Below are positions 1 through 9,946 of a stretch of 41,855 nt of DNA, piece after piece. Below the pieces are notes generated by a model. It was not told the DNA's origin and did no database searches. It saw only the letters and a list, made by a program, of their open reading frames with translations. The first letter of the stretch is position 1; each line of letters begins with the position of its first letter. This DNA comes from Pirellulaceae bacterium (lineage in GTDB: Bacteria; Planctomycetota; Planctomycetia; Pirellulales; Pirellulaceae): assembly GCA_028281725.1 (NCBI GenBank), contig JANQJJ010000027.1, positions 1 to 41,855 of the forward strand, written 5' to 3'. The position numbers and the translations under genes were made by a program.

Positions 1-1628
1 TGCACTGTCGGCGCGTGAAGGAGATTGTTCCGCGTGGATGCTCCGCTGAATTTCCAGACCGATTCCTTTGGGTTGCAGTCAAATTTCCAAATCAGCTCGC
101 CCTTGCCGTCCGAAGTTCCCCACGGGTCAAAACTGTACAGCCAGCCATCGCCGCCAGGAAAGATCACCTGAGTCTTGCCAGCCAACTCGGCAACCACAGG
201 TGATCCCCACTGCCCATGCAGAACGTTTTGTCCCGGCGAATCGTCTTGCCACAGAAGTTTGCCGGTCTTTTTATCAACGGCAATAAAGCTGGGTGCGTCG
301 GCCAATGGAGGCGTATGCGTTTCGTCGACACCGTTTCCGGTGACGGCGAAAATGCGGTCTCTCCAGACGGCAATCGTGCAGGTGCTGAGGTTGTGAGGAC
401 GTACGCCAAGTGCCGACATCATATCCAGCCGCCAAACGACATCCGCTTCCTTGTCATCGGTAAAGGCTTCGTTTTGTTCCGGTCCATCGTTCCGATCATC
501 GTGGAATCCCATCGTATCCAGGCAGACGATTTCGCAGCGATTGGTCACATACCACAATCGATCACCTTCGACGCATGGACGACTGGTCACACCCTGCAAC
601 GGCCAATCGTGGACTCGTCCCGTCGACAATTTTTCGTTGGAATGTTGCCATAGAAATTTGCCGTCGGGCTTTCGGAAGCACAGCAACACGCCCAGATCAA
701 CATGGCTGGGGTATCGTGCGAGGTAACCGTGAGCATTGTTGGTTCCGATATAGACGTGCTTATCATCAACGACCGCTGCCCGCATCGTTTGCGATCCCAG
801 CGGCATCCGCCATCGAACGTTTTGCCCCGACTCAGCATCCCATGTCAAAACGGTCTTCGAGTCATCAGCCAATTCCGGGTTCACCTGTTTGGCCGGCGCG
901 TCAAGCTTAGGTGCAGGGCTCGCTGATGTTGGGTTCGCTGATGTCGCCCACTTCGGCGGCTTGTTTTGAACCTCGATTTTAGCCAGCCAAGTTGCTCCGC
1001 GTTTCAAGGTCACTCGGTCGCCCAAGATTTCGATGCTTGCCGATTCATCATCGACCTCGATATGATACGTGCCGGCGCGCAGCCGAGTCGTGATCCCTTC
1101 CTTCGACACGGTCAGCTCTTCGACGCACCTTTCTCCATCGACAATCCGGATAGGCACGGACGCTTCCGAATTGCTCTCGATTCGAATCGTGCCTTTGCCT
1201 GATTCGAGAAAAATGAGGACTCCGGCAAAAAGCAGCAACGCCATCGCTGTTGCAAGGATCCGCCTCGGCCATGGCGATCGTCGGGAACCTCCGCTTCCGA
1301 TCACTCCAGCGACTTCATAACCGCCGATGCGGCCAAAAGAATTCGGATCATCCGTCGGCGCAAGATGCGCTAGCACTTGTTCGACTTGTGAATCAAACCG
1401 ACCATCGACTTCCGAGCCGAACCGATCGGAACTCGGCAAACTATCCGCGCCACCGAGCAGCTTGGTGGCTTCTTCCCAGACGGCTTCGTCGGCGACTCGA
1501 CGTTCCAGTTCTGCCCCGCAGCTGGCGCACTGATGGAGGTGTCGCGTCAATTCACGTTCGGCATCAGAGCTAAGATCGCCGTCTACAAACGCGGCCAGTC
1601 GCTTTGGATCGCAGATCAGCTGACTCAT
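1..1628 (-). CDS. Membrane-anchored zinc-finger / PQQ beta-propeller protein with a vestigial kinase N-lobe (partial, C-terminus off the window)
   Basis: The ORF track misses this gene because it has no stop in the window; I translated it by hand. Residues 1-40 form an anti-sigma-type zinc finger (C6, then HLHQCASC with H30/C34/C37). Residues ~98-114 read FGRIGGYEVAGVIGSGG, the opening strand and glycine loop of planctomycete Ser/Thr kinases. The protein then jumps straight to a basic patch and a transmembrane helix (~122-141). After that come the ESGKGTIRIESN-type post-membrane domain seen in those kinases and a PQQ/quinoprotein-like propeller with repeated W-rich strands. The lysine, HRD and DFG parts of a kinase are absent. 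The start ATG overlaps the TGA of the upstream sigma factor (ATGA), so the two are translationally coupled. Inferred role: membrane sensor and anti-sigma factor of that sigma factor. It cannot phosphorylate. The C-terminal extent is unknown. Confidence 0.88.
   Translation of the reverse strand, partial: MSQLICDPKRLAAFVDGDLSSDAERELTRHLHQCASCGAELERRVADEAVWEEATKLLGGADSLPSSDRFGSEVDGRFDSQVEQVLAHLAPTDDPNSFGRIGGYEVAGVIGSGGSRRSPWPRRILATAMALLLFAGVLIFLESGKGTIRIESNSEASVPIRIVDGERCVEELTVSKEGITTRLRAGTYHIEVDDESASIEILGDRVTLKRGATWLAKIEVQNKPPKWATSANPTSASPAPKLDAPAKQVNPELADDSKTVLTWDAESGQNVRWRMPLGSQTMRAAVVDDKHVYIGTNNAHGYLARYPSHVDLGVLLCFRKPDGKFLWQHSNEKLSTGRVHDWPLQGVTSRPCVEGDRLWYVTNRCEIVCLDTMGFHDDRNDGPEQNEAFTDDKEADVVWRLDMMSALGVRPHNLSTCTIAVWRDRIFAVTGNGVDETHTPPLADAPSFIAVDKKTGKLLWQDDSPGQNVLHGQWGSPVVAELAGKTQVIFPGGDGWLYSFDPWGTSDGKGELIWKFDCNPKESVWKFSGASTRNNLLHAPTV
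1287..1337 (-). other. Remnant of a protein kinase N-terminal lobe inside the anti-sigma-like protein
   Basis: The encoded peptide GRIGGYEVAGVIGSGG matches the beta-1 strand and start of the glycine-rich loop of bacterial Hanks-type kinases. It stops exactly where MG..V.KA would follow and continues in frame into the juxtamembrane segment SRRSPWPRR. This pattern fits an in-frame loss of the whole catalytic core. Confidence 0.75.
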
Positions 1629-2224
1629 AAGTGGGATGCCTCGAATTCCGCAACTGCTTTTCGTAATCGCTGCATGACTCGGCAGCGAGCGGTGTAAATC
1701 GTTCCAAGCTCTTTGCCTAGCCTTGCAGCCGCTGCCGGGTTGCTCAGACCATCAATGACCGTCAGCTTGAAGGCCAGCCAAGTGTCCGGTTGCACGTCGC
1801 CGCTGACAATCTCCGCAGCGCGACGATATCGCTCTCGGCGAATCTCCCAATCGATCAACGACTCCGTCTCCGAGTCGGCTTGTGGATACGCAGCCAGCAA
1901 CTCCTGCATTGACGAACCGCCGGCGGCCTCATCTGCCCCGCGTCGCGAGATCGCATTGACGATCGCGTTACGAGTGACTCGCCTTAGCCAGTGACGGAAC
2001 CGCGTCGATGCGTCCTGCTTTTTCCAACGACCAATCGCGGACGCGACCGCCAGCAAGACTTGTTGCGACAGGTCCTGAGCATCGGCTTCCTGAAACCCGC
2101 GAGCTACTGCCGTTCGAAAAATGACCGGACGATACATCGAAACAAATTGTTCCCACGCCACCCGGTTTTCAGGGTCCTTGACCTGAACAATCAGGCTTTC
2201 GCGGGTCTCGGGGAACTGTGTCAT
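1625..2224 (-). CDS. ECF-family RNA polymerase sigma factor (planctomycete kinase-linked type)
   Basis: About 199 aa if started at MTQFPETRE (ATG at 2224). The track's longer ORF adds 19 unconvincing residues (MFDSCRVEFRLWF...). Region 2 is seen in FVSMYRPVIFRTAVARGF...DAQDLSQQVLLAVASAI, followed by FRHWLRRVTRNAIVNAISRR, which fits regions 2.3-2.4. Region 4 is the C-terminal helix-turn-helix DGLSNPAAAARLGKELGTIYTARCRVMQRLRK. It would direct RNA polymerase to a small regulon, possibly including its own promoter. Its TGA overlaps the ATG of the zinc-finger membrane protein, the usual sigma/anti-sigma order. In planctomycetes such sigma factors are commonly paired with membrane Ser/Thr kinases; here the partner has lost the kinase. 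Confidence 0.93.
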   Translation of the reverse strand: MTQFPETRESLIVQVKDPENRVAWEQFVSMYRPVIFRTAVARGFQEADAQDLSQQVLLAVASAIGRWKKQDASTRFRHWLRRVTRNAIVNAISRRGADEAAGGSSMQELLAAYPQADSETESLIDWEIRRERYRRAAEIVSGDVQPDTWLAFKLTVIDGLSNPAAAARLGKELGTIYTARCRVMQRLRKAVAEFEASHL

Positions 2225-2509
2225 GACGTGTTTCAGCTGATGGAACCAAAGACGGAATTCTACCCGACAACTGTCAAACACACGAATTCGGAATCCTTAC
2301 ACGAAAACTTTCCATATCAGCTCCCCGGTCTTCCTTGTGGAAAGAGAGCACGAGCCCCCGGAGCAATATCGGAGTTCTTTCATGGAAAGTCGAAAACAGG
2401 CTACACCCAAAGTAAAACTGCTCTAGGTGAATCAATCCAGCTTAGACAGGGGGCGGCGCGGCTGGGCAGTGAGAGCGACGCGGGGCGTGAGCGGGCGACG
2501 AGACGCGTG
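2225..2509. other. Intergenic region between the DUF3686-type ATPase gene and the sigma factor
   Basis: No convincing gene. On the minus strand a TAGAAT -10-like box lies about 40 bases upstream of the sigma start, but its -35 is poor. The nearby TTGACA is only 9 bases from TAGAAT, so the two cannot form one normal promoter. No clear terminator for the ATPase gene was seen. Confidence 0.4.
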
Positions 2510-5500
2510 TTATTCCTTTTCCGCGGCGTCGATTTCGTTTTGTAGCTCTCGGTATTGCTGCAGGCAGTCATCGATCGAGTTGCGCAGACGCTCGAGCTGA
2601 GTATTGTTGATCGCTGCCGACTCCAGCACAGGGCGCAATCCGTCGTAGAGTAGCTGGAATTGGCTGCGGACCAGATCGGTCATCACGCGCGGAACGGAGT
2701 GTTGGACCAGTACCTTTTGTTCGGGTAGTTCTCGACTGGCCGACTCCATGCGCCGGGCTTCCGTGGAGATGGCATCGCTCACCTGGCCACCTAGCGAGCC
2801 CAAGCCCGCGTTGAGATGTGCCAAGCCTTCCTCAAGTGCGGCAGCGCGATCGTTCGCGTGACTGGCGGCAATGGCCTGCGACATCGTACGGCGGATGGAC
2901 TCCAGACCATCGCGAAGACCGGACAGTATCCGCAACACTTGGGCCGTGCTATCGTCGCCCTCCAAACCCTGCATGCGGACGCTCTCCACGTAGGCGTATT
3001 TGATTTGCTCCCAGCGGTCAGCCTCTTCGGTTGTTAACGTGCCCAACAGTTCCCTAAACTTCAGCAGATTCGATTCGCCATCTCGCGTTAGCGTCTGCGC
3101 GTCCTGCTCGTAGTTCGCCATAATCAAGCTCTGCAACTCTGCCTCGTTCATGACAGGTACCACGCGTTCGGCTATACGGTTCATATTGCGATAGCTGCCC
3201 TGCAACTTGAATGGAGGCTCGGTACGGTACGCATCGGCCTGAGCCGCACTGCGGATGTAAGTTCGGTTGACGCGTAAAACAATGTCACGCACCTTCAACA
3301 GCTTGGTAATCACCGAGATCATGTCCGATAGCTGGTCACCGGCCAAGTTGGATTCCAGTTCCAGCCGCTCGGTTGTGCCCAACTCGGCGGCCCGAATGAT
3401 GGCGCGTTGGTCTCGGCTGGAGCAGCGCCCCAGCTGTTGTAGCGACGAGTTGCTGGTCAGGCAGTTTTCGATGTAGCTCAACTCGAACGCTTCGCGCGCG
3501 TCCCCGATAATTTCTCCCAAGTTGTAAACGTCGGCTCGATTGGACAACATGTCGGGTATCTGAAAACGATCGCCGCTTTCGGTGTAGGGATTGCCCGCCA
3601 TAACGACGACCACCTTCCGGCCTCGCAGATCGAAGGTTTTGGGCTGGCCGCGGGAGACGCCTTCAATTCTTCGCGTCGCATCGCACAATGGAATAAACTT
3701 TTGCAGCAGTTCCGGATTGCAGTGTTGAATGTCATCCAAATACAGCATGACATTGTCGCCCATTTCGAGCGCCAAATTGATTCGACGCACCTCTTCGCGC
3801 GCCGACGCGTTCGTTGCCTCGGCGGGATCCAGCGACGTGATCTGGTGTCCCAAGGCAGGTCCGTTGACTTTGACAAACACCAGCCCTAGTCGGTTGGCAA
3901 TGTACTCCATCAACGTCGTCTTGCCGTAGCCCGGCGGACTGATCAGCAACAACAGCCCCATTCGATCGGTTCGCTTGCCTTCGCCGGCTGCGCCAATTTG
4001 TTTGGCCAGGTTGTCACCTACCAGCGGCAGATAAACTTCGTCGATCAGCCGGTTGCGTACGAAGCTGGTCAGCACCTTCGGTTTGAACTCGTCGACGCGC
4101 AGTTTTTTGCTGGCCTCCTGGATCAGTCGATGCTTCGTATGGCGCAGTGCCGTGAAGCGAGGGAGCGTCTCGCGGCGGTAGCTATCCAGCCGAGATAGAA
4201 ACTCGTGATAGTTCAGTCTGAGCGTGCCGCCGGAAATTCTGGGGTGATCACCGACCACCGAATCCAGTTGCAGCGCTACCGGTACGTCTGGACCGGGCGT
4301 ATACCCATCGCGGTCGCTGAGCAGCAACGCCGCCACCTCCAGTCGATAATTGCTTATCGGATCGGGGTCTTCCGCTGCGCCTGATTGTTCCGCGATGTAT
4401 CCATCCACGGCGTCGCAGGAGAGCGTCCAGGCGGCAACCGGGTCATCACCATTGGCCGCAATCGACTCAGCCAATCGGCCGCGCTCGTCGGATGGTAAGT
4501 GGTCTTGCAAGTGTTGCAGCACGTGGACGGCTCTGGGGCTGGCGACGACCTTGTCGCATCGGCTGGTTAGCTGCGAAAACAGGTAGCGAGCCGCCAACGA
4601 GACTTGCGGAGGCGATATGATCCCTTTGCCGCATTTCATCATCAACCTTCTAAGACGCCGCTCGTAGCCTTGGCCCGCGACGGATTTCGGCAGCATGGCA
4701 GCCACGGTTGCGAAGCCAGAAATCCATGTCTCCATCTTGGCTCGACGCTCTGCCGGCACGAGTGTGTTCCAGACAAACCAAGCCGGGCCGCGGACGTCGG
4801 GTGCAAACTTCAGCAAGCCCAGCTGCTGGTCCATTTCTAGCAGTGCGCCGAGTATTTTGGCTGCGTCACGATCGTGGACACCCCGCGAATAGCCTTCGTC
4901 GTGCCGCTGCTGCATCTGAGCGCGTACGAGCTCGACACGAGCGTCCGGCTGGAGCTTCAGGAACTGTTTCGATGACTCTCGCAATTCGTCGAATAGTTCC
5001 GCAGCCAGAAATTCGCCGCGATAGATTTCTTCAGATTCGCTCGGTAGCAACTGTTGCCACAAGTCCTGGGCTTCGTCGAGTGCCGGGTCGCTTAGGTCCT
5101 GGAAGAACTGGGTACCGGTCAAGTGCATTTGCAGCCGGCCGCTGCGCACCACCGACGTCAGCTCGATCGTCTGTCGATTGACTGAGAAACGGTGTCGCCC
5201 CAGCTGGATCAGCCCTTCTTCGCCGGTGAATAAATCTTGCCGATCTCTCAATTGCCGTAGCGAGTCGTCCGATACCGTCTTCAGGCGACTTAAGATATCG
5301 TCCATGCGTACCGTGTCACCGAGCTCTTGCAACTGGTCGGCGATCTGCCGCACCTTGTCGACCATAGGGTCGGAGGCGAAGTAAGACCGAAGAGCATCGG
5401 CATCGGACAACCGCAGAGCTCTGGAGGTGATGCCCTGCATGATGCGGTCTGCCGCCGACGCGAGCGACTGAGCTCGGCGCGAACGCGCCTCGATCAGATG

Positions 5501-7732
5501 TTGACGGCGAGCTTCGAACGCTTCGTACAGCGATTCCCGTTTTTCCGTCAGCCTCAGCAGCAATTCATCGAATTCGGCAAAGCGACCTTCCAATTCTTCC
5601 AGCTGCAGCATCATCCGAGTGAGCGCATCGTCTAGCTTTTCCGGCGTATCCGCCGTCTCCAGCGCGCCGGCGGCCGCTTGATCGAGAAGCTTCGTCTGGG
5701 ACGCAAAGTCGGCTTCCATTTCACCTGAGAGCAGGTCGCGAATGCGGGCTTTGAGTCCGGAGCGAACTCGATTCAATTCCGCCAGCAGATCGCCGGTCTG
5801 ATCGACGATCGCCGTCCTCTGCGTGAGATCTTCGATCTTGAGTTGCGAGACGGTTTCGATCAGCAACTCCAGATCGGAACCGATTTCCGCCAGTTGCTCT
5901 TCCAGGTCGCGTCCGTCGGCAGCGGACCCGACCCGGTCGACCGCCTCTTCTGCGACGGAGATCCGCTGGCCGTAAGGCGTTAGCGATTTGGGGTTCAATA
6001 AAAACTGGACACAACGGTGGCCCAATCTCTCGGCCGCTTCAGCCAGCCGGGTTTCCAGATCGACGACCGCCGCCTCGTCGATAAACCGCCGCCCGCGGAG
6101 TCCAATGGCATGGCCACGTTGCTCGCGTATGCCAGCCAACCGGACCACGAAGTCGCCTATGGAATCGAAGGGCGACCGCGCGATGGCCTTGAGCAATTCG
6201 GTTGCGCTGGTTTGTGTTTCGACCAGTGCCTGCTCGGTCTCGCGGCGAACGCGTACGACTTTGTCAAATTCCTCGACCGCCGCGGTCGCCGTGTCACGAA
6301 TCTTCGCTAGCGGCTCAGAGAGCCGCATCGTCTCCTCTCGATCTAACCAGAAATAGCTATCCAGGACATCCGTGGAGCGTTTGGCCAAGTCGAGATAGAG
6401 ATCCGCGTAGGAGTCGTCCTTATCGATCAATTGCAGCAGTTCTTGGCACTCGGCCATACCGCGCACCAACTCGCGATTGCCGATCTTGTAGAGCATGGAG
6501 TCCGTGGCGACTTCAGCACGAAAGTTAGGCCCGACATACGGCGTGTGCCAAAGCTGCAGCGCGTGGTGCTTCTGAGCATGATCTTGAGAACGAAACGAGA
6601 TCATTTGCCCGTCGTCAAAAAACGCTTGGCCATGGCAAATCAGAGGTGTGTCGACTTCCTGGCGAATCAGATTGTAACGCAGGTGCAAGTATGTCCCGGA
6701 CTCCAGGTCGGTGAAGACGTAAAGGAAGTCCTCACCGTTGGGTGCCGCGATCGTCCGCTCATACAGCAGATTCTGCATGCCGTGATCAAACAGCTTGTGG
6801 TTGCCGGTTTGCAAATAGAATCCGCCGGGGAAGATGATGCCCTGATCGTCCGGAAGCAGGACGCAAGCTTGTGCCATCGCATCCATACGCGAGACCTGCT
6901 GACGTTTGGTGCTGTAGACCAGATATCGGAAATCCTTTTCCAGATAGGGTTTCATCTTCAGCAGAACGATGTTGCCCATCACGCAGTAGTGGATCTCGGC
7001 ATCGTCTAGCGTCTGATCTACGTTGGCGACAGGCTCAGAGTAGATGCCGCTTCCATCTTCGGTATTATCTTCGATTTTGATCGTCAGATCACCGCCGACG
7101 CATTCGACGAACACCAGATCGTTAATCGAGATATGCGGGTGCAGGCCGCTACGATGCTGATCCCGGGTCGCGCGCTGCCAGCGAAACGCATGTTGCTCCG
7201 GAAAGCGGACTTCTTGATCGCTACGATTATCCACGTAGCGAAGCCGGCTCCCCTCAATGGCCCATTTGAAGGCTTTGATGTCCGTCGGAGTCTTGCCAAC
7301 TTGGAAGACAAAGTAGACCAGCGGGCCGGCGCGAAAAAACCGGGAGAAGGTCGTGTCCTTGTAGTAGCGATACAGTTCACCAAAATCTTGGCGGAAACGA
7401 TCGTCGAACAGTTCTGACAACTCGACTTGATGCGCGATTTCTCCTTCGAGCCGATACAGGCTCAAGACGTCATCGCAGTTGATTTCGGTTTTCAGCCCAA
7501 ATTGGACGTTGTAGCCCAGCAGGACCAAATCGCCAATCGCCAACAAGTCGCGCGGTATGCAATTGTGGTCCGTGGACACGTGCGCCGTGCCGCCCAATCG
7601 CGTTTCGATGTTGCCGAAGACGGCCGAGCGAGCCGCATTGAGTTTCTCAAATCGTTCACGTAGATCGGCGGCTGCATCGCGCAGTCGATTGCGAAGGACT
7701 TCGTAGGTACCAGTTGCCAGCGATTCTGCCAT
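2510..7732 (-). CDS. Giant AAA+ ATPase with DUF3686-like N-terminus ('DNA repair ATPase' family), flotillin-operon partner
   Basis: 1740 aa. Residues ~1-450 resemble the DUF3686-type N-terminal region (LAIGDLVLLGYNVQFGLKTE). Residues ~470-900 are highly charged and helical, probably coiled coil. The AAA+ module has Walker A LLISPPGYGKTTLMEYIA (~1260-1275), Walker B NVMLYLDDIQH (~1325-1335), a sensor-1-like segment VVVVMAGNPYTESGDRF and an Arg in MLSNRADVYNLGE. A second helical region fills ~1440-1740. There is no signal peptide or membrane helix, so it is cytosolic. The family is annotated as DNA-repair ATPase, but I see no nuclease or DNA-binding motif. It follows a flotillin and an OB-fold membrane protein on the same strand, suggesting work at a flotillin scaffold (inference). 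Its ATG has no Shine-Dalgarno; a small ORF stops 2 bases upstream, suggesting coupled initiation. Confidence 0.9.
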   Translation of the reverse strand: MAESLATGTYEVLRNRLRDAAADLRERFEKLNAARSAVFGNIETRLGGTAHVSTDHNCIPRDLLAIGDLVLLGYNVQFGLKTEINCDDVLSLYRLEGEIAHQVELSELFDDRFRQDFGELYRYYKDTTFSRFFRAGPLVYFVFQVGKTPTDIKAFKWAIEGSRLRYVDNRSDQEVRFPEQHAFRWQRATRDQHRSGLHPHISINDLVFVECVGGDLTIKIEDNTEDGSGIYSEPVANVDQTLDDAEIHYCVMGNIVLLKMKPYLEKDFRYLVYSTKRQQVSRMDAMAQACVLLPDDQGIIFPGGFYLQTGNHKLFDHGMQNLLYERTIAAPNGEDFLYVFTDLESGTYLHLRYNLIRQEVDTPLICHGQAFFDDGQMISFRSQDHAQKHHALQLWHTPYVGPNFRAEVATDSMLYKIGNRELVRGMAECQELLQLIDKDDSYADLYLDLAKRSTDVLDSYFWLDREETMRLSEPLAKIRDTATAAVEEFDKVVRVRRETEQALVETQTSATELLKAIARSPFDSIGDFVVRLAGIREQRGHAIGLRGRRFIDEAAVVDLETRLAEAAERLGHRCVQFLLNPKSLTPYGQRISVAEEAVDRVGSAADGRDLEEQLAEIGSDLELLIETVSQLKIEDLTQRTAIVDQTGDLLAELNRVRSGLKARIRDLLSGEMEADFASQTKLLDQAAAGALETADTPEKLDDALTRMMLQLEELEGRFAEFDELLLRLTEKRESLYEAFEARRQHLIEARSRRAQSLASAADRIMQGITSRALRLSDADALRSYFASDPMVDKVRQIADQLQELGDTVRMDDILSRLKTVSDDSLRQLRDRQDLFTGEEGLIQLGRHRFSVNRQTIELTSVVRSGRLQMHLTGTQFFQDLSDPALDEAQDLWQQLLPSESEEIYRGEFLAAELFDELRESSKQFLKLQPDARVELVRAQMQQRHDEGYSRGVHDRDAAKILGALLEMDQQLGLLKFAPDVRGPAWFVWNTLVPAERRAKMETWISGFATVAAMLPKSVAGQGYERRLRRLMMKCGKGIISPPQVSLAARYLFSQLTSRCDKVVASPRAVHVLQHLQDHLPSDERGRLAESIAANGDDPVAAWTLSCDAVDGYIAEQSGAAEDPDPISNYRLEVAALLLSDRDGYTPGPDVPVALQLDSVVGDHPRISGGTLRLNYHEFLSRLDSYRRETLPRFTALRHTKHRLIQEASKKLRVDEFKPKVLTSFVRNRLIDEVYLPLVGDNLAKQIGAAGEGKRTDRMGLLLLISPPGYGKTTLMEYIANRLGLVFVKVNGPALGHQITSLDPAEATNASAREEVRRINLALEMGDNVMLYLDDIQHCNPELLQKFIPLCDATRRIEGVSRGQPKTFDLRGRKVVVVMAGNPYTESGDRFQIPDMLSNRADVYNLGEIIGDAREAFELSYIENCLTSNSSLQQLGRCSSRDQRAIIRAAELGTTERLELESNLAGDQLSDMISVITKLLKVRDIVLRVNRTYIRSAAQADAYRTEPPFKLQGSYRNMNRIAERVVPVMNEAELQSLIMANYEQDAQTLTRDGESNLLKFRELLGTLTTEEADRWEQIKYAYVESVRMQGLEGDDSTAQVLRILSGLRDGLESIRRTMSQAIAASHANDRAAALEEGLAHLNAGLGSLGGQVSDAISTEARRMESASRELPEQKVLVQHSVPRVMTDLVRSQFQLLYDGLRPVLESAAINNTQLERLRNSIDDCLQQYRELQNEIDAAEKE

Positions 7733-7734
7733 GG

Positions 7735-7953
7735 TTACTTGTTGCTATCTTCAGAGGGCAGGGTAGAGAAACTGAAGCGAAAATCCGGCCGATGGAGCCG
7801 CTGAAACGTCGTCCCCCATTGCCACCGCGAAGTCTCAGCGAATTGGCCGTGGTGCGCCGGATACGCCAGCGCGGCCAAGTGAGGCCACGGCAGCTGACCC
7901 GAGTCTAGTTTAAGCCTTCCCGTTAGTCGTCTTGCGTGCGACGAGTTGGCCAA
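7735..7953 (-). CDS. Possible small protein between flotillin and ATPase genes (72 aa or shorter)
   Basis: This frame opens inside the 3' end of the flotillin gene (first usable start is a TTG at 7953) and ends with TAA only two bases before the ATPase ATG. The part beyond the flotillin stop reads as a plausible protein, with W/F/R-rich strands such as SRWQWGTTFQRLHRPDFRF. About two thirds of third positions are G or C by hand count, like the neighbouring genes. Against it: no clear Shine-Dalgarno, an awkward start and no family I recognise. It may be a real coupled gene, a leader for the ATPase or chance. Confidence 0.3.
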   Translation of the reverse strand: MANSSHARRLTGRLKLDSGQLPWPHLAALAYPAHHGQFAETSRWQWGTTFQRLHRPDFRFSFSTLPSEDSNK

Positions 7954-9946
7954 TGGGCTGGTCGGCCAAGTTCAGTGTGCCAGCCATGCCTAGCAAGTCT
8001 ACAAGTTGCGAACGCATGCTGTCGGAGCCCCCGTTCGATAGCAGCTGCGCGATCAGAGCCGCAACGCTCAAATCTTTGATCTCACCGCTGCTCAAGTTGA
8101 ACTGATCTACCAGGTAGGCCAAGCTTTCTTTGAATTTCTCGGGATCGCCCGTGAAAAAAGTGTTCTTGACGTCGGTTGCCACCTGGGAATTGTAGACAAA
8201 ACGATCGATGGCCTTGCCACCCTTGACGGCGGACGATATTTGATCGAAGAACTCACCGTCACCACCGACGATGTCGATTTTAGCTGCCTTCAGCGCCTCG
8301 CCGAGAACCGAGGCTTGCTCACCGGCGATGGACTGTTGAGCTTCAATGGCTGCAATCTCGATATCCTTATCCTTTTCCAACCGCAGTTTAAACTCCTCGT
8401 GTTCCTTGCCGACGCCGTCAAGCTCCTTCATGGCGGCGGCCTTTTCGGTGATACCGTGGGCTTCACTCAAGTATTTTTCTTTCAGCACGAGCGCCTCGGC
8501 CAACCCTTGTTTCTCCGCCGCAGCCGCCTGGGCTTCGAGTACGTGGGCGCCCGCGAGCCCTTCGGCCGCATGCTCTGCTGAGGCCGCCTCGGCCAACATC
8601 TTGGTCGCTGCGCTCTGTTTCTCGGCGCGATCACGATCCGCTTCGGCCTCGATGCGGACTTGTTCGGCCAGCAATTCAGACGCGTTGCGCGCGGCCTCTG
8701 CCGCTTTGACTTCCTTGATGAGCGCCTGTTCGGCAGCCATTTCCGCGGCGGTGACTTCCACCTTCTTCTTCCGCTCTGCCTCGGCGAATGCCTCCGTATC
8801 TTGAATCCGTTGTTGCTCTTCGACCACAGCCCGTTCGACGACTACTCGTTCGCGGATCACCTCTTGAATGTTGCGACGTTCGGTCTCAATTGCCTTTTCT
8901 TTTTCAACCTCAGCGACTCCCACCACGCGCTCGCGTTCGGTGGCTTCCAGGTGCCGGTCGCGCGCCACGCGCTCCAGCTCGACTGCGTCGGTCCGCTCCT
9001 TGTTGCGTTGGGCGACGAGAATCTGCCGGCTCTTGTTTTCTTCGGCGACTCCCAGGTCCTCCTCCGTCGCAATGCGAGCTTGCTCGGCCGCCAGGCGGTT
9101 TTCCTCTTCAACTTTTCTCGCCGCCGCATGCTCGCGAGCCTCGATCTCAGCAACTTCTCGCTTCTGCTTTTCGACCGCTTCAACCCGCTGGCGTTCCAGC
9201 TCCAAAATGGCTTCCTGCGCCTCCACATCTTGTTTCTTGAGGGTCTTCTCTCGCTCCCGCGTGTAGTAGTTTTCCTTGACCTTCTCACCGGAAGTCAGCT
9301 CGGTGATCTTCTTGATACCCTCGGCGTCCAGGATGTTATTGGGATTGAGTAGTTCGAGTTTTGTCTGCTCCAGGAAATCGATAGCCGCATCGTCAAGCCG
9401 ATAGCCGTTCAGATCGGTACCAATCACCTTCAGGATTTCGTCTTTGAATTGCTCCCGTTTGTCATAGAGTTCGACAAACTCAAACTGTTTGCCAACCGTC
9501 TTGAGCGCTTCTGAGAACTTCGAGTCAAACAACTCGCGCAGCGTTTCGACTTGGCTTGCTCGTCTGCAGCCAATGGACTGGGCGACTTCTCGCATCTCTT
9601 CCTGAGTCTTGTCGATCCGAATAAAAAACGCCACGCGGATATCTGCACGGATATTGTCCTTGCAGATCAAACCCTCCGAACCCTCCCGAGCGATTTCGAA
9701 GCTCTTGAGCGTCAAATCCATCTTCTCATGGCGATGCACAACCGGAACAACAAAAACCCCGTTGGCCGTGACGACTTGCATGCCGCCCCAACCGGTGCGC
9801 ACGATGGCCTCATCAGGCCCCACCTTGACATAAAATCGGCTGGCAAGTGCGGCTAGTCCGATCAGAAACGCGATAATCGCAACGATGACGATGATTGCGT
9901 AGATCGCAACATCTGGTAGCTGACCAAGCATAAGTAGATCGTTCAT
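7910..9946 (-). CDS. Flotillin (SPFH-domain, YqiK-type) membrane-microdomain scaffold protein
   Basis: 678 aa. One N-terminal membrane helix (~12-37, VAIYAIIVIVAIIAFLIGLAAL) is followed by the SPFH/band-7 domain (~45-220: FYVKVGPDEAIVRTGWGG, then NIRADIRVAFFIRID). A very long Glu/Ala/Lys-rich coiled coil follows (~230-540), with the EAEADRDRAEK-type repeats of flotillins. A globular tail ends in LADQPIGQLVARKTTNGKA. Flotillins oligomerise on the inner membrane and organise fluid or rigid microdomains. The gene starts 9 bases after the stop of the OB-fold membrane protein, so they are one transcription unit. The length and NQ-poor, E-rich coiled coil fit YqiK rather than the shorter FloA group. 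Client proteins are unknown; the adjacent ATPase is the obvious candidate. Confidence 0.95.
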   Translation of the reverse strand: MNDLLMLGQLPDVAIYAIIVIVAIIAFLIGLAALASRFYVKVGPDEAIVRTGWGGMQVVTANGVFVVPVVHRHEKMDLTLKSFEIAREGSEGLICKDNIRADIRVAFFIRIDKTQEEMREVAQSIGCRRASQVETLRELFDSKFSEALKTVGKQFEFVELYDKREQFKDEILKVIGTDLNGYRLDDAAIDFLEQTKLELLNPNNILDAEGIKKITELTSGEKVKENYYTREREKTLKKQDVEAQEAILELERQRVEAVEKQKREVAEIEAREHAAARKVEEENRLAAEQARIATEEDLGVAEENKSRQILVAQRNKERTDAVELERVARDRHLEATERERVVGVAEVEKEKAIETERRNIQEVIRERVVVERAVVEEQQRIQDTEAFAEAERKKKVEVTAAEMAAEQALIKEVKAAEAARNASELLAEQVRIEAEADRDRAEKQSAATKMLAEAASAEHAAEGLAGAHVLEAQAAAAEKQGLAEALVLKEKYLSEAHGITEKAAAMKELDGVGKEHEEFKLRLEKDKDIEIAAIEAQQSIAGEQASVLGEALKAAKIDIVGGDGEFFDQISSAVKGGKAIDRFVYNSQVATDVKNTFFTGDPEKFKESLAYLVDQFNLSSGEIKDLSVAALIAQLLSNGGSDSMRSQLVDLLGMAGTLNLADQPIGQLVARKTTNGKA

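Follow-up and report, generated by a model that had tools for sequence, protein, structure and literature searches.

What remains of a kinase-linked ECF sigma factor system when the kinase is cut out of it? Many ECF sigma factors of Planctomycetes adjoin Ser/Thr kinases, the planctomycete STPK-linked groups including ECF59, ECF61, ECF62, and ECF217 (PMC8999054), and the mode of control exerted by the kinase is known only for ECF43. The question is raised by a pair of genes at one end of the window, by which we mean the whole stretch of 41,855 nucleotides analyzed here. The window is an entire contig (C493) of a MAG of 568 contigs that is 85.5% complete and 5.7% contaminated. As judged from sequence, the locus is best explained as an ECF sigma/anti-sigma pair whose ancestors were kinase-linked ECF systems of Planctomycetes. 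We estimate a probability of about 0.58 that this pair became a plain anti-sigma switch of the membrane through a real and recent in-frame deletion of the kinase.

The sigma factor is encoded by the ORF at 1625-2281 (minus strand), which matched Pfam Sigma70_r2 (3.5e-9) and, weakly, Sigma70_r4_2. Its likely true start is the ATG at 2224 (MTQFPETRES), and its stop codon TGA and the start codon of the partner gene overlap as ATGA (1625-1628). The partner gene (ORF 3-1628, minus strand) begins at the ATG at 1628 and is open as far as position 3, where the contig ends. It encodes, in this order, a zinc-finger anti-sigma domain, the start of a kinase (DPNSFGRIGGYEVAGVIGSGG), the segment SRRSPWPRR, a transmembrane (TM) helix, a beta domain, and a BamB-type PQQ propeller. 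Pfam detected zf-HC2 (residues 10-37, above cut-off) and PQQ_2 in the C-terminal half, and no Pkinase match anywhere in the 542 residues of the protein. The missing 3' end of this gene was not found in the MAG assembly, nor did any plasmid closely match the window. Further along the window, a DUF3686 AAA ATPase of 1740 residues (2510-7732, minus strand) is encoded beside a flotillin-like protein with no Pfam match at 1e-4 (7910-9946, minus strand).

Residues 1-114 of the partner protein (1287-1628, minus strand) run up to the point at which the kinase is cut. The anti-sigma domain (1362-1628), delimited by zf-HC2, alignment A2, and an AF2 model, comprises a zinc-binding bundle and, set apart from it, a helix at residues 80-89 (1362-1391). 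Its zinc ligands are arranged as C6-x23-H30-x3-C34-x2-C37, of which H30, C34, and C37 are invariant in alignment A2. The AF2 model is a modest one (mean pLDDT 65, 13 sequences); it places the helices of the bundle at residues 8-15, 21-33, and 35-57 (pLDDT mostly 75-90), helix 4 at residues 80-89 with low confidence, and the kinase stump within a disordered stretch (pLDDT below 50 at residues 59-118). Past the cut (1203-1286, minus strand), the protein continues with SRRSPWPRR, a juxtamembrane segment of positive charge (1260-1286), and a single TM helix (1203-1259). The hydropathy maximum of 2.43 falls at residues 124-142, preceded by RRSPWPRR, AF2 predicts a helix at 120-143, and the juxtamembrane and TM segments can be aligned with the SRPPW-TM region of locus L144.

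In class I anti-sigma factors, helix 4 contacts sigma region 2, and Hx3Cx2C is the zinc signature (PMC7406223). Both elements are N-terminal to the stump and are retained in the window protein. The predicted layout, in which a flexible linker connects the three-helix bundle to helix 4 and a disordered stump precedes the TM helix, matches the class I description in PMC7406223, and the single TM, the extracytoplasmic part, and the sigma gene directly upstream are further features shared with the RsiW type. However, the window protein comes from a kinase ancestor and has a glycine-loop stump in its linker, and its binding of sigma is putative. The top sequence match, DdvA (PDB 8rlz), was a weak one (E 0.18).

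The kinase stump FGRIGGYEVAGVIGSGG occupies residues 98-114 (1287-1337, minus strand). An alignment to kinase homologues, which the earlier note had proposed, equated it with the start of the kinase N-lobe in all homologues. The stump is real, and its length, given as 16 residues in the note, varies with the measure used: by the Pfam Pkinase model, with position 1 set from the orthologue, it has 11 residues (Y104-G114, 1287-1319), and by the family-conserved motif it has 17 (F98-G114). The alternative that the stump is natural linker sequence, with no kinase behind it in any homologue, was ruled out, since a kinase stands there in all assessable relatives. Compared with the closest orthologue, from genome G040, the stump is identical at 22 of 24 positions, against only 45 of 87 in residues 1-90. 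This near absence of drift next to a half-identical upstream domain points to a recent loss or, with lower probability, to a product of assembly. It also implies that little time has passed in which maintenance of the product could show, which leaves room for pseudogene, strain-variant, and artefact readings.

The pattern among relatives is uniform. In approximately 112 of 112 assessable relatives in Planctomycetes, the fetched loci, searched with an HMM built from the same family, had a kinase at exactly the junction residue, a result well beyond chance that bears out the statement of the earlier note that planctomycete homologues usually have a full Ser/Thr kinase at this point. The kinase directly follows the stump in 89 of 90 zinc-finger and stump ORFs (88 distinct kinase-bearing ones, as one gene was fetched twice), and the remaining ORF (L137) stops at a contig end. 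It was also present in 17 further sigma-linked loci and in seven of seven class-level relatives. The sample includes complete single-contig genomes (G008, G233, G226, G223, G184, and G188), so contig breaks do not account for the pattern. When the window protein was used as query, matches from relatives and from the genome of the window itself as a rule stopped at residues 114-116 or started at about 111-126, with some 270 residues between them. In the G040 orthologue, Pfam Pkinase begins at the residue matching Y104 and is 252 residues long; 270 residues separate GG from PPPIRRRW, before the membrane helix, and none of them is present in the window. The partners of all sigma-clade orthologues (G040, G233, and G228) have a full kinase, which makes the loss derived in the lineage of the window. 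The pair still resembles STPK-linked ECF systems: the sigma gene adjoins that of the partner, and the partner retains the zinc-finger N-terminus, the stump motif, the TM, and a domain past the TM. However, it is without a kinase, and a PQQ propeller replaces the sensor of the orthologue.

No joined, kinase-less homologue was found in searches at family, order, and class level (241, 397, and 398 overlapping genomes), which rules out an ancient kinase-less subfamily. Apparent junction-spanning matches in G011, G027, G010, G100, G389, G700, and G778 all proved to contain kinases once fetched, and the matches of L078 and L087 from residue 119 were spurious extensions. Sigma loci for which no zinc-finger/kinase ORF had been tabulated (L227, L230, L231, L239, and L242) were read by hand. 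L239 does carry a kinase, and no recognizable zinc-finger gene was seen in L230, L231, or L242. The last of these (G228:C54:41500-49500) holds, near the intact pair, a second but truncated orthologous sigma gene (76% identical, 137 codons) that has no partner. In L227 (G226:C1:5973500-5978700), from the complete genome G226, a minus-strand ORF (offset 1238-1553) lies directly after the sigma gene and encodes only a zinc finger. It has 105 codons, stops after LTPTDD just before the stump, and includes neither kinase nor membrane helix; apparently, either the kinase was lost independently here or the gene is decaying or a pseudogene. Two further kinase genes are disrupted, a sibling zinc-finger/kinase gene of the window's own genome by an in-frame TAG (G000:C543:882-1730) and L246 (G739:C101) by a frame shift, reflecting decay or assembly errors.

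The deletion junction was compared at the DNA and protein levels with L207, L144, L146, L147, L208, and L209. The cut falls after G114 (1286/1287, minus strand), in frame and inside the glycine loop, as the earlier note had read it, with GSGG kept and joined straight to SRRSPWPRR. The latter aligns with ASRPPW or GSRFPP, immediately before the membrane helix of the homologues. Missing at the junction are 270-288 residues relative to most homologues compared, and 402 relative to one carrying an insert. In the linker of L147, TCC CGN comes after a glycine codon, and the deletion could therefore have been guided by a short repeat at such codons. The 20-mer before the junction has a single match in the genome, also when two mismatches are allowed, which makes a repeat-driven error of the assembly graph unlikely. 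The MAG contains no stray copy of the lost kinase: no remaining kinase is more than 64% identical to that of the orthologue, and the best leftover matches belong to other zinc-finger/kinase loci. GC content and codon bias are alike on both sides of the junction. Meanwhile, the G233 orthologue (L208, G233:C1:6193500-6198200) has about 130 extra residues between kinase and TM, suggesting that this border accepts insertions as well as losses.

The sigma factor itself is well preserved. It is 74% identical to orthologues adjoining kinase-bearing partners and clusters with those of G040, G233, and G228 in the sigma tree (SH-aLRT 95); a fourth orthologue, from another family (G545, 70% identity), also has a partner with a full kinase. 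The acidic DxxD of region 2.2 is kept as D-A-Q-D (EADAQDLSQQ), and among kinase-linked homologues the first D is found in 102 of 105 and the second position is D/E in 96 of 105. With the zinc ligands kept as well, the claim that both the sigma partner and the zinc finger are preserved holds. The ECF43 pairs (EcfP-PknT and EcfK-PknS) resemble the relatives of the window in having an ECF sigma beside a receptor-type Ser/Thr kinase. However, ECF43 sigmas are without the acidic DxxD and require phosphorylation, whereas kinase-linked groups other than ECF43 retain the region 2.2 acids (PMC8999054, PMC13147305). The window sigma, with no kinase beside it, does not show the ECF43 hallmark of a replaced DxxD and a phosphorylated Thr, and phosphorylation of the EcfP type should therefore not be needed. 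As it retains the acids like its kinase-linked relatives, loss of the kinase need not lock the sigma off. Seven of eight conserved Ser/Thr columns are kept, the sole loss being E191 (sigma ORF numbering), in a column occupied by Ser/Thr in 94 of 105 kinase-linked sigmas. A role for E191 as a compensating phosphomimetic was rejected, since two kinase-linked homologues share the Glu and 74 of 106 rows deviate at one or more of the eight columns.

The outer part of the protein has a different history. The extracytoplasmic beta domain (residues 145-220; 969-1196, minus strand) is predicted with confident AF2 strands and is 58% identical to that of L144 from G008, where it occupies the post-kinase position; it had no Pfam assignment and no significant PDB match. 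The BamB-type PQQ beta-propeller (3-863, minus strand) was recognized by PQQ_2 (1.5e-11) and by a Foldseek match to BamB (E 1.5e-8). Residues ~252-542 are 57-61% identical to stand-alone, BamB-like planctomycete propeller proteins. Elsewhere such propellers occur alone or with peptidase-like membrane domains, whereas the one in the window is fused to an anti-sigma domain. The sensor, which the earlier note took to look intact, cannot be called so, because some 200 residues of the propeller family would lie beyond the contig end. Nor is it simply the old sensor retained: the G040 orthologue has DUF1559 instead, and among 120 such propeller ORFs none joined a PQQ module to a kinase and no ancestor with both turned up. 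The change thus consists of the loss of the kinase plus a different sensor. The regions behind the membrane helix vary widely among homologues, suggesting that module exchange is general there. L140 (G011:C20) and L141 (G012:C409) join members of this propeller family to domains that by eye, with a HELAH-type motif, resemble M56-type (BlaR1-like) membrane peptidases; the propeller may be a mobile sensor module used in several receptor types.

The evidence for the deletion comes from one locus in one incomplete draft MAG, and the gene leaves the contig 1.3 kb beyond the junction. A competing but unlikely account invokes an error of assembly or binning, or else a strain variant present in the minority. 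According to it, the true gene has its kinase and the tail past the junction was misjoined or chosen. The number of contigs, the contamination, and the nearby contig end would all fit, as would the nearly uneroded stump, the differing nearest relatives of the three modules, and the fact that MAG contigs often break within these conserved kinases (L123, L127, L132, and L137). However, the join is in frame and falls at homologous domain borders, and the unique 20-mer, the even base composition, and the lack of an orphan kinase in the assembly also argue for a genuine deletion.

A genuine deletion could still have broken the system and left a remnant on its way to becoming a pseudogene, which we consider slightly less probable than an artefact. 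The short time since the deletion and the decay in related loci (the 105-residue zinc-finger-only ORF of G226, the C543 stop codon, and the G739 frame shift) are in line with a dying gene, but the frame is open for 583 codons to the contig end, and neither the zinc ligands nor helix 4 nor the sigma gene has been lost. A random deletion preserves the frame just one time in three. Phosphorylation in trans, with another of the cell's many Hanks kinases acting on the pair, seems improbable. The genome yields 59 kinase matches when searched with the kinase domain of the orthologue, and PknB phosphorylates separate ECF anti-sigma factors of M. tuberculosis (PMC8999054). Nevertheless, no partner kinase was recognized among the window genes examined, and no phosphosite appears altered or added, given the seven of eight Ser/Thr columns kept and the presence of E191 in kinase-linked sigmas as well.

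We therefore favor a recent in-frame deletion that would have removed the whole Ser/Thr kinase from an anti-sigma/kinase protein. The remnant would have a class I layout, with a zinc-binding anti-sigma domain in the cytoplasm, a short linker that includes the stump, a TM, and an extracytoplasmic beta domain with propeller. Plain sequestration in place of phosphorylation, which the earlier note suggested, is mechanistically possible as the sigma keeps its DxxD, and with these acids kept and the kinase gone it is the most likely residual mechanism. The partner protein would hold the sigma of the overlapping gene at the membrane, and the outer part would sense a signal upon which the sigma may be released by regulated proteolysis or conformational change, with no phosphorylation by a kinase of its own. 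Here we infer, beyond the facts of the sequence, the sequestration, the topology, the signal, and the release step, as well as a deletion that is real and fixed. A working one-step switch, made through clean excision of the kinase from a sensor-kinase/anti-sigma protein and gain of a BamB-like sensor, is a more tentative proposal, to which we give somewhat less than even odds. On this plausible reading, the locus is a kinase-linked ECF system minus its kinase that, if functional, acts like a class I membrane anti-sigma factor.

The relatives examined start with a zinc-finger anti-sigma-like domain, and a natural kinase-less pair would separate the roles of this domain and the kinase. This opens a testable question: does the zinc finger alone hold the sigma, and does the kinase normally release it? 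If the one-step switch is true, the locus would be a natural experiment in which the zinc-finger part of planctomycete ECF kinases proves to be a true anti-sigma factor and the kinase a dispensable add-on.
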